Origin: Thermanaeromonas sp. C210
GTDB lineage: Bacteria > Bacillota > DSM-521 > Neomoorellales > Neomoorellaceae
DNA: 64,000 nucleotides
Direction: 5' to 3'
NCBI RefSeq assembly: GCF_013167955.1
Contig: NZ_BLWF01000001.1
Span: 62,001 to 126,000, forward strand
Positions 31,139 through 42,321 of this stretch are shown here, piece by piece (the first letter of the stretch is position 1; the number at the start of each line of letters is the position of its first letter). The translations under genes were made by a program, and so were the position numbers. The notes below the pieces were generated by a model that was not told where the DNA came from, ran no database searches, and was given only the letters and a program-made list of their open reading frames with translations.

Positions 31139-34100
31139 ATGCGGCGAAAAACCGGCGGCCCTCCAAGGGTCAAAGCGGCCCTGGCCCTGCTGGGCCTTTT
31201 CCTTTTGACCTGGACTTTGCGCGTACATATTCGGACGAATACATCTTTCTTGAGCGACCGGGCGGCCCACCTCACCGGTGTCGGAGCGGTCGCGGCACCG
31301 GGGGTGGTTCTGCCCGAAGGCCTGACCGGCCGCGGCCAGATCATCGGCCTGGCCGATAGCGGCCTGGACGCCGGTCGCCCCGACGACATTCATCCCGACC
31401 TGCAGTCCTCCCCGGGCGCCTTCCCCAAGGTGGTCATGCTCAAGAGCTGGGCCGGCCGGAGCGTGCCCGACGACCCTACGGGCCACGGCACCCACCTGGC
31501 AGGCCTCATAGCGGGCACCGGGGCCGCCTCGGGGGGCAAGTACCGGGGCATCGCTCCGGATGCCGGCCTCTACTTTCAGGCCCTGCTGGACGAGGAGGGT
31601 AAAATCTCCGTTCCCCCGGATCTGGAGGACCTCTTCCGGCCCGCCTACGCTGCCGGAGTCCGGGTCCACGTGAACGGCTGGGGTGGAGGTTCTAACCGGT
31701 ACTCCTCCTCCAGCCGCCAGGTGGACGCCTTTGTCCGCTCCCACCTCGACTTTCTCCCCATTTTCAGCGCCGGCAACGGGGGCCCCGTGGCGGGGACGCT
31801 AACCGCCGAGGCCAACAGCAAGAACGCCCTGGTGGTGGGGGCGGCCCAGTCCGTCCGCCCGGCCTTAAGCCCCGACGCCCAGGACGCCTCCTCTCCCGCG
31901 TTCTTTTCCAGCCGGGGCCCGGCCGGGGACGGCCGCTTAAAGCCCGACCTCCTGGCCCCGGGGGCCGGCCTGGTAGGCCCGCGCTCGCGCCTGGTGGAGG
32001 GTAACTTCCCCGCCCACTCCGGCTACAGCCTGCAGAGCGGCACCAGCCAGGCCGCGGCCGTGGCCGGGGGAGCGGCCGCCCTCCTGCGCCAGTACCTCCA
32101 GGAGAAGGGAATACAGGAACCCTCGGCCGCCCTTCTTAAGGCGGCCCTCATCAACGGCGCCCGGCCCGCGGCTTCCGGGTCCGACCCGCCCGGCAGCGCC
32201 TGGGGCCTCCTAGACCTGGCCGGCACCGTCCTGGCCCTGGAAGAGGGCGCCATGCAGCTTGCGGACGAGGTTCGCGGCCTGCAAGAGGGCGAAACGGCCG
32301 AGTTTGAACTAGAGATAACCAATCCCCAGGCGCCCCTCAAGGTGACCCTGGTCTGGACCGACCCTCCTGCGCCGGCCGGGGCGGACAGGGCTCTGGTCAA
32401 CGACCTGGACCTGGTGGTGATCGGTCCCGACGGCCGGGAATACCTGGGCAATGACGCCGACGGGGAGGGCCGGCCCGACCGCCTTAACAACGTAGAACAA
32501 ATTTACATAACACAACCCCCCGCCGGACACTACACCATCAAAGTCATCGCCTCGGCTGTCGCCCAGGGCGCGGTGGCGGGCTCGGGCTCGCCCCGCCAGG
32601 ATTTCGCCCTGGCCTACGGCCAGCTCCTGCCCCGGGGTGTGCTGGCCGGTTTTTCTCCGGCCGGGAAGCTCCGGCTGAGCGACGGCCGGGAAATAGAATG
32701 GCCGGCCGGGAACATCATAAATGTGGTGGACGGGCAGAGGGTGCCCGCCGATAAGGACCACCTCCTGCCCGGGGCCGACGTATACCTGGGCAGCCGCACC
32801 GTCTACGTTGTGGGCGCCACCTGGCAGGGAGCCGGCCTCCAGCCCCTGGCCACCTCCCGGGGGGACATGCTGGTGGAGATCGGCCGGGAGCTGCGGGAAG
32901 GCGGGTTCTACCTTAATCCCGCGGCCGGGAGCAACGTCTTCCTGGACGGCCGGCCTGCCGACCTGGAAAGCCTCCCTCCCGGCGTGGACGTTTCCGCCAC
33001 CCTCAATCCTTCCACGGGCACCCTCTGGACGGTGGAGGCCCGGGCCGTATTGAAAGAGGGGCTGGTGGCCGAAGTGAACCCGGAGGAGAACACCTTGCGG
33101 CTCCTCCACGACGATCAGATCTACCGCCTTTCCTCCCGGGTAGCCGTCTCTTTCGCCGACCGCCTGCACGGCTCGGCCCTGGCCGACCTGCCCTTCGGGG
33201 CGGCGGACAAGGGTGAGGTGGAGCAGATATGGCCCGGGATGGCCGTAGAGCTGGCCCTATCCTCCCGGAGCGGGGAGGTGGTGTACCTGGCGGTAAAGCG
33301 GGACCTCGTGGTGGGCCGCATCGCCTCCGTAGATGCCTCCGCCGGCCGGCTGGTGCTGGAAACCGGAGCCTCCCTCAAAGTTTTCCCCGGAGCCCCCCTG
33401 GAGCGGGACGGCCGCGAGGCGGGGCTTGAAGAGTTAAAGCCGGGCGACTGGGTCCGGGCCGTCACCCTGCCGGAGGCGGACACCGCGGTGGCCCTCCGGG
33501 CCTACAGCCGGGTCCTCTACGGCCGGGTGATTTACGTCAGCCGGGACCGGGACCTTCTATACCTAATCGACAGCCGTAACGACTTCCACCTCCTGCGCCT
33601 AGGGTCCGCGGCCCATATTTACCGCTGGGGCCTCTGGGCGGGCCGGGAGGCCGTCAGCCCCGGCGACTGGGTCCGGGTAATCCTGGATCCCCAAGAAGAT
33701 GAGATATGGCGGATTGACGTGGCCCCGGTGGCCGGGGAGAAGAAGGGCGTCCTGGCGGGCTGGGACCGCGACGACGGCCTCCTCCGCCTGGCCGACGGCA
33801 CCTCCTACCCCGCCTCCCGGGCCACCCTGGTGACCCTGGGGGGCTACCCGGTCCCGGTGGAGGACCTCCCGGCGGGCCTCACGGCCCAGGTGGTGTACCT
33901 CCAAGCCCCCGGCACCCCGGTGCTCGCCCAGGTGGCGGCCGAAGTCCCTGCGTCGTCCCCGCCCCCGGAGCTCAAGTTTTCGGTGATCGGCCGGGGCGAG
34001 GGGGTGTACCTGGGCGGCACCACTACCGCCGACCGCCTTTACCTCTACCGTGAAGACGGACGACGGGAGGACGTGATCCCCGGCGCCGGAGGCTACTTCG

Positions 34101-34744
34101 CCCATGAAATAGAGCCGGGCCCCGCGGGAGAAACCTGCCTCCTGGTGGCCCTGGACCGGCGCACTGGAGCCGTAACCGGCGCCAGGGTGGAGCTGGGCCC
34201 CGGCGGCCCTTCCTTCTGGGACATTGCCGGCCACTGGGCGGAGGAGGACATCCGGCTCCTGGCCCGGCAGGGCCTCCTGGCGGGCTTTGAGGACGGCAGC
34301 TTCCGGCCGGACCTGCCTGTTACCAGGGCGGAGTTCGTAGCCCTGCTGGTCCGTCTGGCCGGCTGGCCGGTGGCGCCTTCCCCCGAGCTGCCCTTTACCG
34401 ATGCGGCCGAGATTCCCTCCTGGGCCCGGGGGGTGGTGGCCGCCGCCCGTGAGCGGGGCCTTGTGGTGGGCTTTGAAGACGGCACCTTCCGGGCCGGCCT
34501 CCCCGTTACCCGGGCCGAAGCCGCCGCCCTCCTGGTGCGCTATCTGGGCGACCGGGCACCTTCCCCGGCCCTTGACCTCCCCTTCAGGGATTGGCACCAG
34601 GCGCCTTCCTGGAGCCGGGAGGTTCTGGCCCGGGCCTTTGCCGCCGGGTTGCTCCGGGGGACGGCCCCGGATGTATTGTCCCCCCTGTCTTCCCTTACCC
34701 GGGCCCAGACCGCCGCGGTCTTAAGGCGCCTTGCGGGATTGTAG
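31139..34744 (+). CDS. S8 subtilisin-like protease with three C-terminal SLH domains
   Basis: A 1201-aa surface protease. It has an N-terminal membrane/signal helix (residues 12-26). The catalytic triad is Asp73 (LADSGLD), His116 (GHGTHLAG) and Ser303 (SGTSQAAA), with the oxyanion Asn in SAGNGG. A P-domain-like beta region follows (VTLVWTDPPAPAGADRALVN), then a long middle of repeated beta modules (about 480-1010) and three SLH repeats (about 1025-1200; FWDIAGHWAEEDIRLLARQG is the first). SLH domains hold proteins on pyruvylated wall polymers, which fits the LCP/TagA neighbours. Confidence 0.93.
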   Translation: MRRKTGGPPRVKAALALLGLFLLTWTLRVHIRTNTSFLSDRAAHLTGVGAVAAPGVVLPEGLTGRGQIIGLADSGLDAGRPDDIHPDLQSSPGAFPKVVMLKSWAGRSVPDDPTGHGTHLAGLIAGTGAASGGKYRGIAPDAGLYFQALLDEEGKISVPPDLEDLFRPAYAAGVRVHVNGWGGGSNRYSSSSRQVDAFVRSHLDFLPIFSAGNGGPVAGTLTAEANSKNALVVGAAQSVRPALSPDAQDASSPAFFSSRGPAGDGRLKPDLLAPGAGLVGPRSRLVEGNFPAHSGYSLQSGTSQAAAVAGGAAALLRQYLQEKGIQEPSAALLKAALINGARPAASGSDPPGSAWGLLDLAGTVLALEEGAMQLADEVRGLQEGETAEFELEITNPQAPLKVTLVWTDPPAPAGADRALVNDLDLVVIGPDGREYLGNDADGEGRPDRLNNVEQIYITQPPAGHYTIKVIASAVAQGAVAGSGSPRQDFALAYGQLLPRGVLAGFSPAGKLRLSDGREIEWPAGNIINVVDGQRVPADKDHLLPGADVYLGSRTVYVVGATWQGAGLQPLATSRGDMLVEIGRELREGGFYLNPAAGSNVFLDGRPADLESLPPGVDVSATLNPSTGTLWTVEARAVLKEGLVAEVNPEENTLRLLHDDQIYRLSSRVAVSFADRLHGSALADLPFGAADKGEVEQIWPGMAVELALSSRSGEVVYLAVKRDLVVGRIASVDASAGRLVLETGASLKVFPGAPLERDGREAGLEELKPGDWVRAVTLPEADTAVALRAYSRVLYGRVIYVSRDRDLLYLIDSRNDFHLLRLGSAAHIYRWGLWAGREAVSPGDWVRVILDPQEDEIWRIDVAPVAGEKKGVLAGWDRDDGLLRLADGTSYPASRATLVTLGGYPVPVEDLPAGLTAQVVYLQAPGTPVLAQVAAEVPASSPPPELKFSVIGRGEGVYLGGTTTADRLYLYREDGRREDVIPGAGGYFAHEIEPGPAGETCLLVALDRRTGAVTGARVELGPGGPSFWDIAGHWAEEDIRLLARQGLLAGFEDGSFRPDLPVTRAEFVALLVRLAGWPVAPSPELPFTDAAEIPSWARGVVAAARERGLVVGFEDGTFRAGLPVTRAEAAALLVRYLGDRAPSPALDLPFRDWHQAPSWSREVLARAFAAGLLRGTAPDVLSPLSSLTRAQTAAVLRRLAGL

Positions 34745-36463: not shown

Positions 36464-37585
36464 CTACCTCTTCTCCAGCCACAGGACCACGACGTGCTGG
36501 CCTGCCTCCTTATCCCAGGCGGCAAGCTGCTTCTCCAGGAACTCGGCCTGGGACAGGAGCCGCTGCCGCTCCTCCTCGTCCCGGGCTGCGTTGGCCCTCT
36601 CCACCGTCTCCCGGTACTGCTCCAGGATCGCGGCGAAGCGGGCCGTTACGTCCTCCGTCTCCTGCCGCTCCTCCAGCACCGTGCCTAGCCGGGACAGCCC
36701 GGCCACCAGGGCAGGGGCCTTACCGGGCGCCACGGTGAACCTCACCGCCGCCCGCTGTTCTCCCCCCGTGTTCTGCACCGCTATGATCTGGGAGGAGACA
36801 TTGAACTCCGTTCCGGTGGCCGCAGCCTCCTTCAACGCACGGTCCAGGTTCCCGGCGGCCACCTTGAGGAAGGTGCTCTGGATCTGCCGCTCCTTATTCA
36901 TGAAGGCCACGGGGCGCAGAGGCTCCCTGGAGGCCGCCTTAATGGGGGCCGGCGTAGACCGGGAGGGGGAAGAAGCGCTACTTTCACTCTCCCCCGGGGG
37001 AGGGGTTTCTCCCCGGACCCCGTTCGCAGGGGCCTGGACGCCGCTCCCTGCACTGGGGCCGGGCGGGGCACCTTCCCCGTTCCCCCCGCCCCCGGCGACG
37101 GGCTCAACGGGTGAGGCTTGCCCTTCCCCGGTATAGCTTTCACCTTCCGGAACGCCGCTAAAGGCCTGCCGGTCCTCGCCTGAACCCGGCGGCGCGGGGA
37201 GCACCTGCTCCGGCGCAGGATCGAGCTCCAGGGCGGTCAGCCGCCCGCCGGGCCCCGCATCTCGGGCCGCGTAGGCCAGGGACCCTGCCGCCAGGAGGAC
37301 GGCGGCAGCCGCGGACGCCGCCCAGCGCTTCCAGGCGCTAAGCCTTGCCCTGCGCCCCTCTAGGGCCTCCACCCGGGCCATTACCTCCCGCGCTAGCCCC
37401 TGGGGCGCGGCCGGGCTCATCCCGGGCAGGGTTCGCAGGCCCTTCAGGGCCACCTCCAGGGCCGCCAGCTCTTTCCGGCATCGGGGGCAGACCTCAAGGT
37501 GGCCCGCCAGCTCCCCTTCTTCCGGAGGGCCCAGAAGCTTATCGAGATGTAGGGAGAAGGCCTCCCTTGCTTCTGCGCAGTTCAT
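36464..37585 (-). CDS. Anti-sigma factor with zinc-finger (zf-HC2) and DUF4349-like domain
   Basis: A 373-aa membrane protein. The N-terminal anti-sigma zinc domain has HLEVCPRC (H-x3-C-x2-C). One membrane helix is at about residues 85-105, then a long Pro/Gly/Ser-rich linker and a C-terminal extracytoplasmic region with a coiled coil (about 260-370) resembling DUF4349. It likely holds the ECF sigma factor encoded just upstream and senses an envelope signal. ATG 37585 is supported by CAGGTGG; an in-frame ATG at 37600 is possible. Confidence 0.85.
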   Translation of the reverse strand: MNCAEAREAFSLHLDKLLGPPEEGELAGHLEVCPRCRKELAALEVALKGLRTLPGMSPAAPQGLAREVMARVEALEGRRARLSAWKRWAASAAAAVLLAAGSLAYAARDAGPGGRLTALELDPAPEQVLPAPPGSGEDRQAFSGVPEGESYTGEGQASPVEPVAGGGGNGEGAPPGPSAGSGVQAPANGVRGETPPPGESESSASSPSRSTPAPIKAASREPLRPVAFMNKERQIQSTFLKVAAGNLDRALKEAAATGTEFNVSSQIIAVQNTGGEQRAAVRFTVAPGKAPALVAGLSRLGTVLEERQETEDVTARFAAILEQYRETVERANAARDEEERQRLLSQAEFLEKQLAAWDKEAGQHVVVLWLEKR

Positions 37586-37688
37586 CTTCGCCACCTGCAT
37601 CCTCGGCCGCCGGCCGCGCTGCGGGGGGTACTATGCCACCCTCCCGGCCTGCCGGCGCCTTATGTAACGCCGCGGTCCCGGCACCCGT

Positions 37689-38321
37689 TTACGGGCGGGT
37701 GCAACCCTCCCGGGGCTTCCCCACAGGCACACTCCGGGCGGCGCCCTGGGGTGCCGGAATCGGCCCCTTCCTTTCCAGGGACGCCACCTTTTCCTTCAGG
37801 GCCAGCCTGGCGCGGTTGAGCCGCGACTTCACCGTACCCAGGGAGCAGCCCAGGGCATGGGCTATCTCCTCGTAGCTCAACCCCTGGAACTCCCGGAGGA
37901 CCAGGACGGCGCGGTATTCAGGGGAGAGCTCCTCCAGGGCCTGCCGCAGACAGCGCCGGCGCTCCTTCTCGTCCAGGAGCTCCTGGGGGTCCCCGCCTGC
38001 CGCCGCCAGCTCCCGGGTCACTTCCCCTTCCTCGGTCTCCAGGGGTTCGTCCAGGGAATAGGCGATGTTGTCCTTCTTGCTCCTGCGCCGGGAATTGAGG
38101 TACACGTTCACCGTGATCCGGTGGAGCCACGTACCGGGGTCCGCCTCATAGCGGAACTTCTCCAGGTTGAGGTAGGCTCTCACGAAGACCTCCTGGGCCA
38201 GGTCCTGGGCGTCGGCATGATTTCCCGTCAACTGGTAGCTCAGGGCGTACACCCTGTCCTGATAGGCTATAACCAGCTTCTCAAACTCCCTCTTTTTGTC
38301 ACCAAGGTTCAAGACCAACAC
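37689..38321 (-). CDS. ECF-family RNA polymerase sigma factor
   Basis: A 210-aa sigma-70 factor with regions 2 (AYQDRVYALSYQLTGNHADA, QDLAQEVFVRAYLNLEKF) and 4 (LSPEYRAVLVLREFQGLSYE, GCSLGTVKSRLNRARLALK). It starts at a GTG just after AGGGG. It precedes its probable anti-sigma factor by ~100 bp. Two promoters are seen upstream: an ECF-type motif at 38350-38383 and a sigma-A-type at 38525-38553, indicating positive autoregulation. Confidence 0.93.
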   Translation of the reverse strand: MLVLNLGDKKREFEKLVIAYQDRVYALSYQLTGNHADAQDLAQEVFVRAYLNLEKFRYEADPGTWLHRITVNVYLNSRRRSKKDNIAYSLDEPLETEEGEVTRELAAAGGDPQELLDEKERRRCLRQALEELSPEYRAVLVLREFQGLSYEEIAHALGCSLGTVKSRLNRARLALKEKVASLERKGPIPAPQGAARSVPVGKPREGCTRP

Positions 38322-38349
38322 CCCTGGAGGCCCGGTACCTTCCCGGACA

Positions 38350-38383
38350 TTTATTAGACAAAAAATGACGCCCGAAAGTTCCC
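38350..38383 (-). promoter_or_regulatory. ECF-sigma promoter (autoregulatory)
   Basis: On the minus strand: GGGAACTTT, 15 bp, GTCTAATAAA. It lies ~30 bp before the sigma gene and has exactly the same two blocks and spacing as the promoter at 38628-38661. Confidence 0.8.
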
Positions 38384-38524
38384 GCCGTCTTATAACTAAG
38401 GATAAAAATTTTTCACCCGCCGCAACCCGCGAGGGTTATCACCCCCACCCTCCCTGGCCCCGGCGGGATGGGGCAAGGGCACGGGCACCCGGCGGCGGGC
38501 CTGCTGTCCTGACGCTTCCTGTTT

Positions 38525-38553
38525 ATGATACCACATACTGTAAGACGCCACAA
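38525..38553 (-). promoter_or_regulatory. Possible sigma-A promoter of the ECF operon
   Basis: TTGTGG and TATCAT separated by 17 bp on the minus strand, ~200 bp upstream of the sigma gene. Confidence 0.45.
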
Positions 38554-38627
38554 CGGGGAAGACAGCCCGGCCCGTTCCGGTTTTTCTCCCGCAGCTCGTG
38601 GCAGCCAAAAAAATTTTTCCGGGTGCC

Positions 38628-38661
38628 GGGAACTTTAGGCCGGAGTCCGGTGTCTAATAAA
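38628..38661 (+). promoter_or_regulatory. ECF-sigma promoter of the S-layer-like gene
   Basis: GGGAACTTT, 15 bp, GTCTAATAAA on the plus strand, identical in blocks and spacing to the sigma gene's own promoter. Transcription would start near 38668, giving a ~285-nt leader before the 711-aa gene. Confidence 0.8.
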
Positions 38662-38672
38662 GTGGATCGCAG

Positions 38673-38758
38673 GGAAAAGCCCGCCAGGGGAGGCGGACCG
38701 CTGGGTGGATAACCAGCGGGTGGTTGAGATGGCCGCCCCTTCCGCGGCAGGGCTTTCC
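38673..38758 (+). ncRNA. Putative structured 5' leader of the S-layer-like mRNA
   Basis: A closing helix GGAAAAGCCC/GGGCTTTCC encloses three small hairpins: CCGCC/GGCGG, CCGCTGG/CCAGCGG (38698-38704 with 38713-38719) and GCCGC/GCGGC. The first hairpin competes with two bases of the closing helix. It begins within a few nucleotides of the predicted transcription start. It does not match a riboswitch class I recognise; it may stabilise a highly expressed mRNA. Confidence 0.45.
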
Positions 38759-38950
38759 AGGGCAACGGAGCAGATACCGCAGCACCAAGACGCAGTAGCG
38801 GACGGGAAACCTGAGGAGAGGAGGGATGAGGGGCAAGAAAGGCGTACCCGGGCCGGAAGAGAACTCTAAGGCCAGCGCCCGACACGAGGGCGCGGCGGTC
38901 GCACGACAGTGATAACTCATTAAGAGCAAGCGCTCAAGGAGGGAAAAAAT

Positions 38951-41086
38951 TTGAGGAAAGTACGCAGGAAATGGCTTTCCATCCTGCTGACGCTGGCCAT
39001 GCTGGTGGGCCTGGTGGTGCCCCTGGCCGCACCGGCGGCGGCGGCGGTAGATTACGCGGACGTTGTGGGGACCTACAAGTATGTGGACAACGATGCTGAA
39101 GATCAGCCCGCCGGTTCGGTGACGATCAAGGCGACTAGTGATTTTACCCGACCGGAGGACAGCGCCAGCCAGTATGTATACAATAATACTGACACGGTAT
39201 ACGCAACACTCACCCTTCCCGCCGGCGTAACGTTCTCGCTAGTTGATGAAGTGTATGTGAACGGCACGGAAGTTGGAAGTGCGGAAGAAGTATTGTATGC
39301 CTCCGATGATGAAATAACTCTTGAGCTGAGCAAAGAGCAGTTTATCGTCGGCGTAACTATTTCTAACATCATCCTCGATGTGGATGCCGACGTTACCGGT
39401 AGTATTAATGTAGACGTGACAGTTTGGGGGACCAACACCGAGGACAGTGAAACCACCTTTGATTACTCCGAAAGCGTGACCATTGCGAAGGTCCGCAGCG
39501 GGGCAGTTTCGGTGACGGTCGACGACCCCGAGCTCATAACGGTAGGCAGCAGTAGAGCCGGTGCGAAGGTCACCATTAAGGAGCTCAGCCCGGGCGCCCT
39601 CGACGAGGGGAAGGCCATTAAACTTACGATAAAGAAGTCCGGCGTGAAGTGGGACAATAGTAAGATGGACTCGAATGCGGTGAAGGTGACGGGGGTCCTC
39701 GCTGACAGTCCCGTCGTTGATGACAAAGGCAAGAACCTGATCATATCCATTAGCAAGGCTTCCACCACCGTAGCGGGCAGGATTGAGATCACGCCATACT
39801 TTAAGGTTGATCCCACTGCCACGGAGGGTGACGTGGTGGTGGAACTGAGCGGCAACGTCCTCGACACCCAAAGCCTTGTGCTTGCCACCATCGGAGAGGG
39901 CGAAGTAGTGATCGACGTTGAGGACAACGATGGGACCATCTATCAGGGCCTGTCCGCTAGCCTTGACACGGAGATAACGCTCGATGTCAAAGGGTCCTTC
40001 GAATTCGGCGAGGATGACTACATCACAATGACGCTGCCCGAAGGATTCAAATGGGTGAAAGATGAACCCATGACGGTTGAAGATAAGGATGGCAGTCCCG
40101 ACGTAGACGTCGACTACTACAACAGCGACCGCACCGCTTGGTTTATGTTCCCGAGGGGCGGGGCTAGCGGCGACGTTACCATCAGCGGCCTTAAGATTAT
40201 CGCGAAGGGCAACGCCCCCGTGGGCGACGTCTATGTCACTTTTGGTGGCGACGTTGAGGGCAAGGTCAAGATCGCCGAGTGCAAGGCACCCATTACTGTG
40301 AGCGCCGAGAAGGCAACCCTTGTGCCCGGGGTGGCCGACCAGGAAGCTGGCGACATCTACATCAAGGAAGTAGCGGATGGAGCACTAGACCCGCAGGAGT
40401 ACAACGATGGCAATGCTATTGCGATCACGCTGAAGGCGCCGCTCGGCATTGACTTCAGCGCGGCCAAAGTCGAGGTAGACGACGGCGACATAACTGTGCC
40501 CGAGAACGTGTACCGCGAAGATAACACCTTGACGTTCTATGTCACCCGCGAGAGCTCCGTTGCGAGCACCATTAAGATCTCGGACATCAAGTACGATGTG
40601 AGCGCGACGGCCGCGACGGGAGACGTTGAGGTCAAGGTATACGTGAACGACCTCGACAACTATGTCACCAAAGTGGCAAATGCCACTGTGGTCTCCCCGA
40701 GCGCCCGGACTGCCGTCTTCACCTTGGGCAGCAACGTCTACACGGTGAACGGCGTGGAGTACACCATGGACGTGGCCGCATACGTGAAGAACGGCCGGAC
40801 CTACCTGCCCGTCCGCTACGTGGCCTACGCCCTGGGTGTTGACCCCAACAACGTGCTATGGAACGAAGCCACCAAGACTGTGACCCTGCTCAAGGGCATG
40901 AACGCCGTCCAGTTCACCATCGGCAGCAAGGAGCTGAAGCTTAACGGCATCAGCGTCAGCATGGACGCGGCTCCTGAAGTCCAGAGCGGCCGGACCATGC
41001 TGCCCTTCCGGTTCATCGCCCAGGCCTTCGGTGCCAGCGTCAGCTATGACGAGGCCACCAAGACCGTAACGATGAACCTCGAATAG
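38951..41086 (+). CDS. Secreted S-layer-like protein with C-terminal copper amine oxidase N-like domain
   Basis: A 711-aa exported protein. Its signal peptide (MRKVRRKWLSILLTLAMLVG, then cleavage after AAPAAAA) is followed by several acidic, beta-rich repeats with recurring KISDIKYDV/TISNIILDV-type strands. The last ~130 residues form a copper-amine-oxidase-N-like domain (YLPVRYVAYALGVDPNNVLW, MLPFRFIAQAFGASVSYDEA). Composition (acidic, few Cys) suggests an abundant surface protein. TTG start after AAGGAGGG. It has its own ECF promoter and strong terminator. Codon choice in the N-terminal half is visibly more AT-rich than the neighbours. Confidence 0.8.
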   Translation: MRKVRRKWLSILLTLAMLVGLVVPLAAPAAAAVDYADVVGTYKYVDNDAEDQPAGSVTIKATSDFTRPEDSASQYVYNNTDTVYATLTLPAGVTFSLVDEVYVNGTEVGSAEEVLYASDDEITLELSKEQFIVGVTISNIILDVDADVTGSINVDVTVWGTNTEDSETTFDYSESVTIAKVRSGAVSVTVDDPELITVGSSRAGAKVTIKELSPGALDEGKAIKLTIKKSGVKWDNSKMDSNAVKVTGVLADSPVVDDKGKNLIISISKASTTVAGRIEITPYFKVDPTATEGDVVVELSGNVLDTQSLVLATIGEGEVVIDVEDNDGTIYQGLSASLDTEITLDVKGSFEFGEDDYITMTLPEGFKWVKDEPMTVEDKDGSPDVDVDYYNSDRTAWFMFPRGGASGDVTISGLKIIAKGNAPVGDVYVTFGGDVEGKVKIAECKAPITVSAEKATLVPGVADQEAGDIYIKEVADGALDPQEYNDGNAIAITLKAPLGIDFSAAKVEVDDGDITVPENVYREDNTLTFYVTRESSVASTIKISDIKYDVSATAATGDVEVKVYVNDLDNYVTKVANATVVSPSARTAVFTLGSNVYTVNGVEYTMDVAAYVKNGRTYLPVRYVAYALGVDPNNVLWNEATKTVTLLKGMNAVQFTIGSKELKLNGISVSMDAAPEVQSGRTMLPFRFIAQAFGASVSYDEATKTVTMNLE

Positions 41087-41135: not shown

Positions 41136-41175
41136 TGAAGGCGCTTTTGAGGAGTAGAGAGGGGGGAGATTGCTC

Positions 41176-42321
41176 ATGGTGAGGACGGGTCGTGCGGCCC
41201 CGCCGGCGGGGCTGACTGTTGTGGTCTCAACCTTGATCGTCGCGGTGATCCTTCTGACCCTTGGCCTTGCGGGGACGGCCTACGCTTCCCAGGAAGGCCC
41301 CGGCGTGGTGACCCTGGAGGACGCGGTTAGCATGGCCCTTGCGACCAGCGATGACCTGCAGATGGCGAAGGATAATCTGGAGCTAAAGAAGAAGGCCATG
41401 GATGAAACGTGGGACCAATATAACGCTTTCCTTAGGGCGACGCATATACCCGGTACCGATATGTATGCTGCCGTCGCGGCCGGCCAGGACCCGACGGGGG
41501 CCGTGTACAAGAGCCTTTACGACTACCGGGCGGCCCAGAAGGACTACGAGGTTGAGGTGGCTTCGGTTGTGGCCGTGGTCTACCAGAAATACTCGGCCGT
41601 GGTGACCGCCCGGGGGCAGGTGGAGGCTGCCGCTTTGAACGTGGCGGCCAAAGAGAGGGAGCTGGCCGAGGCCGAGGCCAAGTTCAAATACGGGATCGAG
41701 AGCCGCATCAACCTCATGAACAGGCGGAACAGCCTCGCGGCGGCCCGGTCGGAGCTCGCCCAGGCGCAGGATAAGCTGGATAAGGCTTATGCGGACCTGG
41801 CGGAGCTGCTGGGCCTGCCGAAGGGATCGAGGCCGGAGCTGGTCAGCACCGTGGACTTTGTGCCCCTGGAAGTACAGGACGTGGACCGGGAGATCGAGGC
41901 CGTCATCGAGGCCAGCCCCCAGGTGTGGAAGGCCGAGGAGACGGTGAAGCTGCAGAAAAACATCTACGGCATGTACAACTCCTACGACGTGGATATGATT
42001 AACCTGAGGATGGCGGAGAGGGCCGTCGATATGACCAGGGAACAGCTATACCTTGCCCTCCTGCAGGCCTACAACAATGTGAAGGCCCTGGAGGAGAACT
42101 ACCGGGCTCTGGAGGAATCCCTGGCCGCGGCCCGGGAGGGTCTGCGGGTGGCCAGGCTTAAGTACGACCTGGGCATGACCACCCAGGCCGAGGTGCTGTC
42201 CATGGAGAGCACCGTGGCTTCCCTGGAGGCCCAGCTTGAGGGCCTTAGGTGGCAGCACGCCATGGCCGTGAAGGCCTTCTACGAGCCCTGGGCCTGGAGC
42301 GGGAGCAGCGGTGCGCTTTAG
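41176..42321 (+). CDS. TolC-family outer-membrane-efflux-like protein
   Basis: A 381-aa exported protein: N-terminal hydrophobic signal (about residues 14-36), then two coiled-coil halves typical of TolC (VTLEDAVSMALATSDDLQMA; ALEENYRALEESLAAAREGL; ARLKYDLGMTTQAEVLSMES). TolC proteins form outer-membrane export channels in diderms. Related TolC-like proteins occur in some clostridia where the partner is unclear. ATG 41176 lies 7 nt after GGGGGGAG. It lies between two terminators, so it is monocistronic or reads from an unseen promoter. Confidence 0.85.
   Translation: MVRTGRAAPPAGLTVVVSTLIVAVILLTLGLAGTAYASQEGPGVVTLEDAVSMALATSDDLQMAKDNLELKKKAMDETWDQYNAFLRATHIPGTDMYAAVAAGQDPTGAVYKSLYDYRAAQKDYEVEVASVVAVVYQKYSAVVTARGQVEAAALNVAAKERELAEAEAKFKYGIESRINLMNRRNSLAAARSELAQAQDKLDKAYADLAELLGLPKGSRPELVSTVDFVPLEVQDVDREIEAVIEASPQVWKAEETVKLQKNIYGMYNSYDVDMINLRMAERAVDMTREQLYLALLQAYNNVKALEENYRALEESLAAAREGLRVARLKYDLGMTTQAEVLSMESTVASLEAQLEGLRWQHAMAVKAFYEPWAWSGSSGAL

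Follow-up and report, generated by a model that had tools for sequence, protein, structure and literature searches.

Two putative ECF promoters with identical boxes point to a compact sigma factor regulon in Thermanaeromonas sp. C210 and related genera

The window, a stretch of 64,000 nucleotides from Thermanaeromonas sp. C210, carries an ECF sigma factor gene on the minus strand and, divergent from it, a surface-protein operon on the plus strand. The sigma factor (37689–38312, minus strand) contains regions 2 and 4 only (Pfam Sigma70_r2, residues 16–82; Sigma70_r4_2, residues 122–175). It scored 112.5 bits against the sigma70-ECF model TIGR02937 (cut-off 42.9), which places it among ECF (group IV) factors, and 120.6 bits against the NCBIfam RpoE model TIGR02939, far below the cut-off of 236.15, so it was not filed as RpoE. 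Based on a conserved Shine-Dalgarno sequence (AGGGGTG) and an alignment of leaders, we propose that translation starts at the TTG at 38312 rather than at the mechanically assigned GTG at 38321. Minimum-energy folding places a short hairpin (GUCCGG...CCGGGC; 38330–38348, minus strand) before the Shine-Dalgarno sequence, at the predicted 5' end of the sigma mRNA. Folds of 17 orthologous sigma leaders yielded an equivalent stem in most of them, with the stem sequence altered in several genera, and the hairpin perhaps serves as an mRNA stabilizer.

Directly downstream of the sigma gene lies a zf-HC2 gene (36464–37600, minus strand), an arrangement kept in relatives, and its product is the predicted cognate anti-sigma factor. 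The N-terminal zf-HC2 domain scored 26.2 bits (Pfam cut-off 22.2). In the translation, the zinc motif HxxxCxxC reads HLEVCPRC and is followed by one membrane helix, and the C-terminal region resembles DUF4349 with a Pfam score just under the cut-off. Among the papers searched, none brings DUF4349 together with ECF or anti-sigma factors. A gene for an S8 subtilase with SLH domains (31139–34744) converges on the anti-sigma gene, and this neighbourhood is kept in many relatives; the subtilase could be a candidate for a part in sensing or anti-sigma processing.

The divergent operon begins with a gene for a 711-aa secreted surface protein (38951–41086, plus strand), which is modelled with beta-rich repeats and ends in a Cu_amine_oxidN1 domain (PF07833, E 2.9e-46). 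Foldseek searches with this protein returned generic matches only, to strings of beta domains. On the same strand, 83 bases downstream, is a gene for a TolC-like OEP protein (41170–42321), and its adjacency to the first gene is conserved. The OEP protein model is all-helical (mean pLDDT 86), displays the helical hairpin fold of the OEP domain and matches the TolC family in Foldseek (E 1.2e-10). Neither the model nor the alignment contains barrel beta-strands; short loops stand in place of the TolC barrel segments. The protein is conserved in the family, and its predicted lack of a barrel would suit a cell that has no outer membrane.

Between the two operons are two bipartite sites in opposite orientation. 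On the minus strand, upstream of the sigma gene, the sequence from 38383 to 38350 is GGGAACTTT-CGGGCGTCATTTTTT-GTCTAATAAA, with the −35 box at 38375–38383, a 15-base spacer and the −10 box at 38350–38359. On the plus strand, upstream of the surface-protein operon, the sequence from 38628 to 38661 is GGGAACTTT-AGGCCGGAGTCCGGT-GTCTAATAAA, with the −35 box at 38628–38636, again a 15-base spacer, and the −10 box at 38652–38661. The blocks match without a mismatch and the spacing is equal, just as the initial annotation had described for the ECF sigma gene and the divergent 711-aa gene; 244 bases separate the sites. Only 6 of the 15 spacer bases are common to both sites and 9 positions differ; the pair is therefore not a duplicated segment.

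That annotation had also called a chance origin very unlikely and proposed a genome-wide scan for the bipartite motif as a check; our counts bear this out. The motif did not occur in 100 dinucleotide shuffles of the window, and a base-composition model predicts 1.6e-6 full motifs and 0.02 cores per genome. Scanning the whole 2.68-Mb genome for GGAACTTT-N14..17-GTCTAA returned exactly two matches, both at this locus, versus none for the reversed pattern that served as control. Relaxing the full motif to at most three mismatches added one site, versus two in the control. GGAACTT-N15-TGTCTAA had no one-mismatch sites in the genome and five two-mismatch sites, versus 13 for the reversed control.

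From two identical sites alone, autoregulation and a direct target would be no more than a suggestion; it is the comparative data that make the case strong. Sigma orthologues at 55–79% identity carry the motif upstream in 8 genera, and the motif precedes the same surface-protein/OEP operon in 6 genera, unlinked copies included. A family-wide scan identified two motif sites in nearly every sigma-bearing genome, and a third site in two genomes. Wherever the contig includes the orthologous surface-protein/OEP operon, the second site lies upstream of it. The distance from operon to sigma site is 2.7 kb in G010, 5.3 kb in G009 and 6.7 kb in G012, and rises to 18.6 kb in G006, 24 kb in G008 and 552 kb in G011. 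Since the motif is retained where the operon lies far from the sigma gene, it travels with the gene and not with the intergenic region, and this retention is the strongest single argument for the second site as a target of the sigma factor. With the expectation of 1.6e-6 per genome, the diverged spacers and conservation in 8 genera, an origin by chance or by duplication of a segment is extremely improbable. Since the two sites have identical blocks, face opposite ways and are separated by 244 bases, the pair might also be read as a long-range inverted repeat bound by a repressor or recombinase, for example; however, copies up to 552 kb apart elsewhere are each still oriented toward their own gene, and the boxes match ECF −35 and −10 elements at promoter spacing, leaving that reading highly improbable.

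The sites also follow the sigma factor itself. Among 22 genomes of the class, with sigma presence set at E <= 1e-50, a TGTCTAA-type site was present in 15/15 sigma carriers and 0/7 genomes without the sigma, a tally in which one genus is represented by many species and which amounts to only a few independent lineages. The OEP gene occurs in the same 15 genomes and in two others (Fisher p 8e-4, uncorrected for kinship). The initial annotation had stated that the paired sites show autoregulation plus a direct target. Both parts are supported by conservation in 8 and 6 genera, by the unlinked copies and by the absence of sites without the sigma, whereas 'show' was too strong a word.

The target site of G035 reads CGTCTAA instead of TGTCTAA, an extra site in G015 (C16:12479) has no convincing gene downstream, and the gene after a site at C3:375936 encodes a small protein that has no Pfam family. 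The contig scan for sigma factors returned only distant ones (29–39% identity), which were not used. G019, one of the seven genomes without a close sigma orthologue, has CGTCTAA sites only. It carries a 47% identical sigma, and CGTCTAA stands before its anti-sigma gene and also before a gene for an SLH protein, with a Cu_amine_oxidN1 gene after it; these sites and genes indicate the same circuit logic in a sister group.

The genome of strain C210 contains a paralogous cassette as well (C1:143000–154000), in which a sigma gene (C1:148470), a zf-HC2 anti-sigma gene, a gene for a 793-aa Cu_amine_oxidN1 protein and an OEP gene lie on one strand. The paralogous sigma is 46% identical to the one at 37689–38312, and we found no TGTCTAA-type site upstream of the cassette. 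The only other good near-match to the motif in the genome (C1:479616–479649) has CGTCTA, and 89 bases separate it from a NAGPA (phosphodiester glycosidase) gene downstream. Of the 11 family genomes with a NAGPA gene, 10 have a CGTCTA-type promoter before it, reading GGGAACCT..CGTCTA in most genomes and AGTCTA in one. We considered C1:479616 as a third target and rejected it: G005 retains the CGTCTA type despite lacking the sigma studied here, and the type is therefore probably recognized by another ECF factor. The NAGPA promoter points to a second, separate ECF regulon.

These observations bear on whether the two sites, as real ECF promoters, might be read mainly by another ECF sigma, for example the paralogue at C1:148470. 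Such a reading could draw on the paralogous cassette, with its own anti-sigma, surface protein and OEP, and on the second promoter type found before the NAGPA gene in most family genomes having it. However, TGTCTAA-type sites track the presence of the sigma at 37689–38312 and not of other ECFs, the CGTCTA type probably belongs to another factor given its occurrence in G005, and the paralogous cassette has no TGTCTAA-type site of its own. We regard a different principal reader as very unlikely, and take the sigma at 37689–38312 to be the very probable one. Promoters might nonetheless be common to paralogous sigma factors in some genomes. As a separate observation, G007 has a second copy of the sigma (G007:C1:1596041; 72–77% identical), with no promoter motif upstream and no recognizable anti-sigma within 14 kb.

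Promoter anatomy was compared over genus representatives, 8 for the sigma promoter and 6 for the target promoter. The −35 block holds 1.94 bits per base in sigma promoters and 1.93 in target promoters, the −10 block 1.64 and 1.69, and the spacer 0.75 and 0.73. The 15-base distance between boxes is invariant in all representatives; the boxes are near-invariant and the spacer sequence drifts. An ECF sigma factor typically has an autoregulated promoter whose −35 carries AAC and whose −10 carries CGT. Here the −35 contains GGGAAC, and the −10 reads TGTC, with T replacing the usual C of CGT. Directly upstream of the target −35 is an A7T5 tract (38607–38618, plus strand) that looks like an UP element; the segment roughly 10–20 bases upstream of the target −35 is 90% A+T across the 6 genus representatives, and A-tracts are present in nearly all target promoters compared. 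An UP-element-like A5T5 tract also lies upstream of the sigma promoter (38404–38413, minus strand), where the A+T bias is weaker in relatives.

The −35 box GGAACTT is that of E. coli sigma-E (PMC2893595, PMC8103513), in which it is read by R171, S172 and R176 (PMC3397946). Region 4 of the sigma studied here aligns with the sigma-E region 4 structure 2h27, and K165, S166 and R170 sit at the positions of these three residues, two identical and one conservative. Conservation, co-occurrence, the boxes and the kept contact residues together argue for a compact ECF regulon made up of an autoregulated sigma/anti-sigma operon and one surface operon. Very probably, the two sites are the promoters through which the sigma at 37689–38312 drives its own operon and the surface-protein/OEP operon, and they constitute the whole regulon at consensus strength. 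Motif searches could have missed weak targets with degenerate boxes.

A standard ECF loop is the most likely way in which the circuit works. When idle, the membrane-bound zf-HC2 anti-sigma would hold the sigma. An envelope signal would then free the sigma through inactivation of the anti-sigma, and the freed sigma would transcribe its own operon, a positive autoregulation that raises the sigma level. It would also transcribe the divergent surface operon strongly, with the A/T-tract presumably helping. An ECF sigma factor that controls both itself and a neighbouring target is a textbook case (PMC3817407, PMC8103513). The circuit type is thus ordinary, and the novelty lies in the two-promoter regulon, which is the smallest possible, and in the depth of its conservation. 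More speculatively, the sigma may have evolved as a factor dedicated to a single task: it would monitor the condition of the cell surface and replenish a specific wall module. Such a module would consist of an abundant Cu_amine_oxidN1 surface protein together with the barrel-less TolC relative, the latter possibly a helical conduit or strut through the wall of a cell that has no outer membrane. The circuit would then have been inherited as a two-promoter unit parallel to the paralogous cassette; we hold this scenario only tentatively.

ECF sigma factors are common, and their targets are usually guessed promoter by promoter. Here both promoters of the proposed regulon are readable from sequence and can be checked across genera, which makes it a clean test system consisting of one sigma, one anti-sigma, two promoters and one output operon. 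It assigns a putative regulator to the Cu_amine_oxidN1 surface protein family and to the barrel-less TolC-like protein, and it shows that a single genome holds two types of ECF promoter, TGTCTAA and CGTCTA.

Several known systems share parts of this design. E. coli RpoE (sigma-E, ECF02) is alike in its −35 GGAACTT and −35-contact residues, and resembles the proposed circuit in its autoregulation, membrane anti-sigma and envelope role. In contrast, it controls up to 89 transcription units (PMC2893595) versus the two predicted here, and the sigma in the window falls far below the RpoE family cut-off. The anti-sigma in E. coli is RseA, and the one here is zf-HC2/DUF4349-like. Neisseria meningitidis sigma-E likewise has a very small regulon (its own operon plus msrA/msrB), a −10 of CGTCTAAH and an A/T-rich UP element upstream, but its −35 is GTMAGBWTT, its spacer is 12–13 bases and its target is msrA/msrB, not a surface protein (PMC2893595). 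The Tt-RpoE1/Tt-TolB pair of Thermoanaerobacter tengcongensis also joins an ECF sigma of a thermophilic anaerobe to a one-helix membrane anti-sigma, and Tt-RpoE1 autoregulation was shown in vitro; unlike the system here, its promoter is tGTTAC-N16-CGTC, and the parts of the source that were read describe no surface-operon target (PMC3397946). Finally, the product of the second target gene shares the helical hairpin fold and Pfam OEP domain of the TolC outer membrane factor family, but is modelled with short loops instead of beta-barrel strands.

The target mRNA is predicted to begin with an untranslated leader of ~285 nt (38662–38950, plus strand), its extent taken as the interval between the −10 box and the TTG start with AAGGAGGG. 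An Rfam search of this leader and that of one relative gave no match above chance, and the consensus fold of the aligned target leaders was weak (−3.3 kcal/mol, with an unfavourable covariation term), so a riboswitch or other known RNA was rejected. We also considered a conserved leader peptide following AAGGAGGG but abandoned the idea, as several relatives lack the ATG. Target leaders in relatives span about 160–290 nt, and those of the main related genus contain three spaced CGCAGCA repeats.
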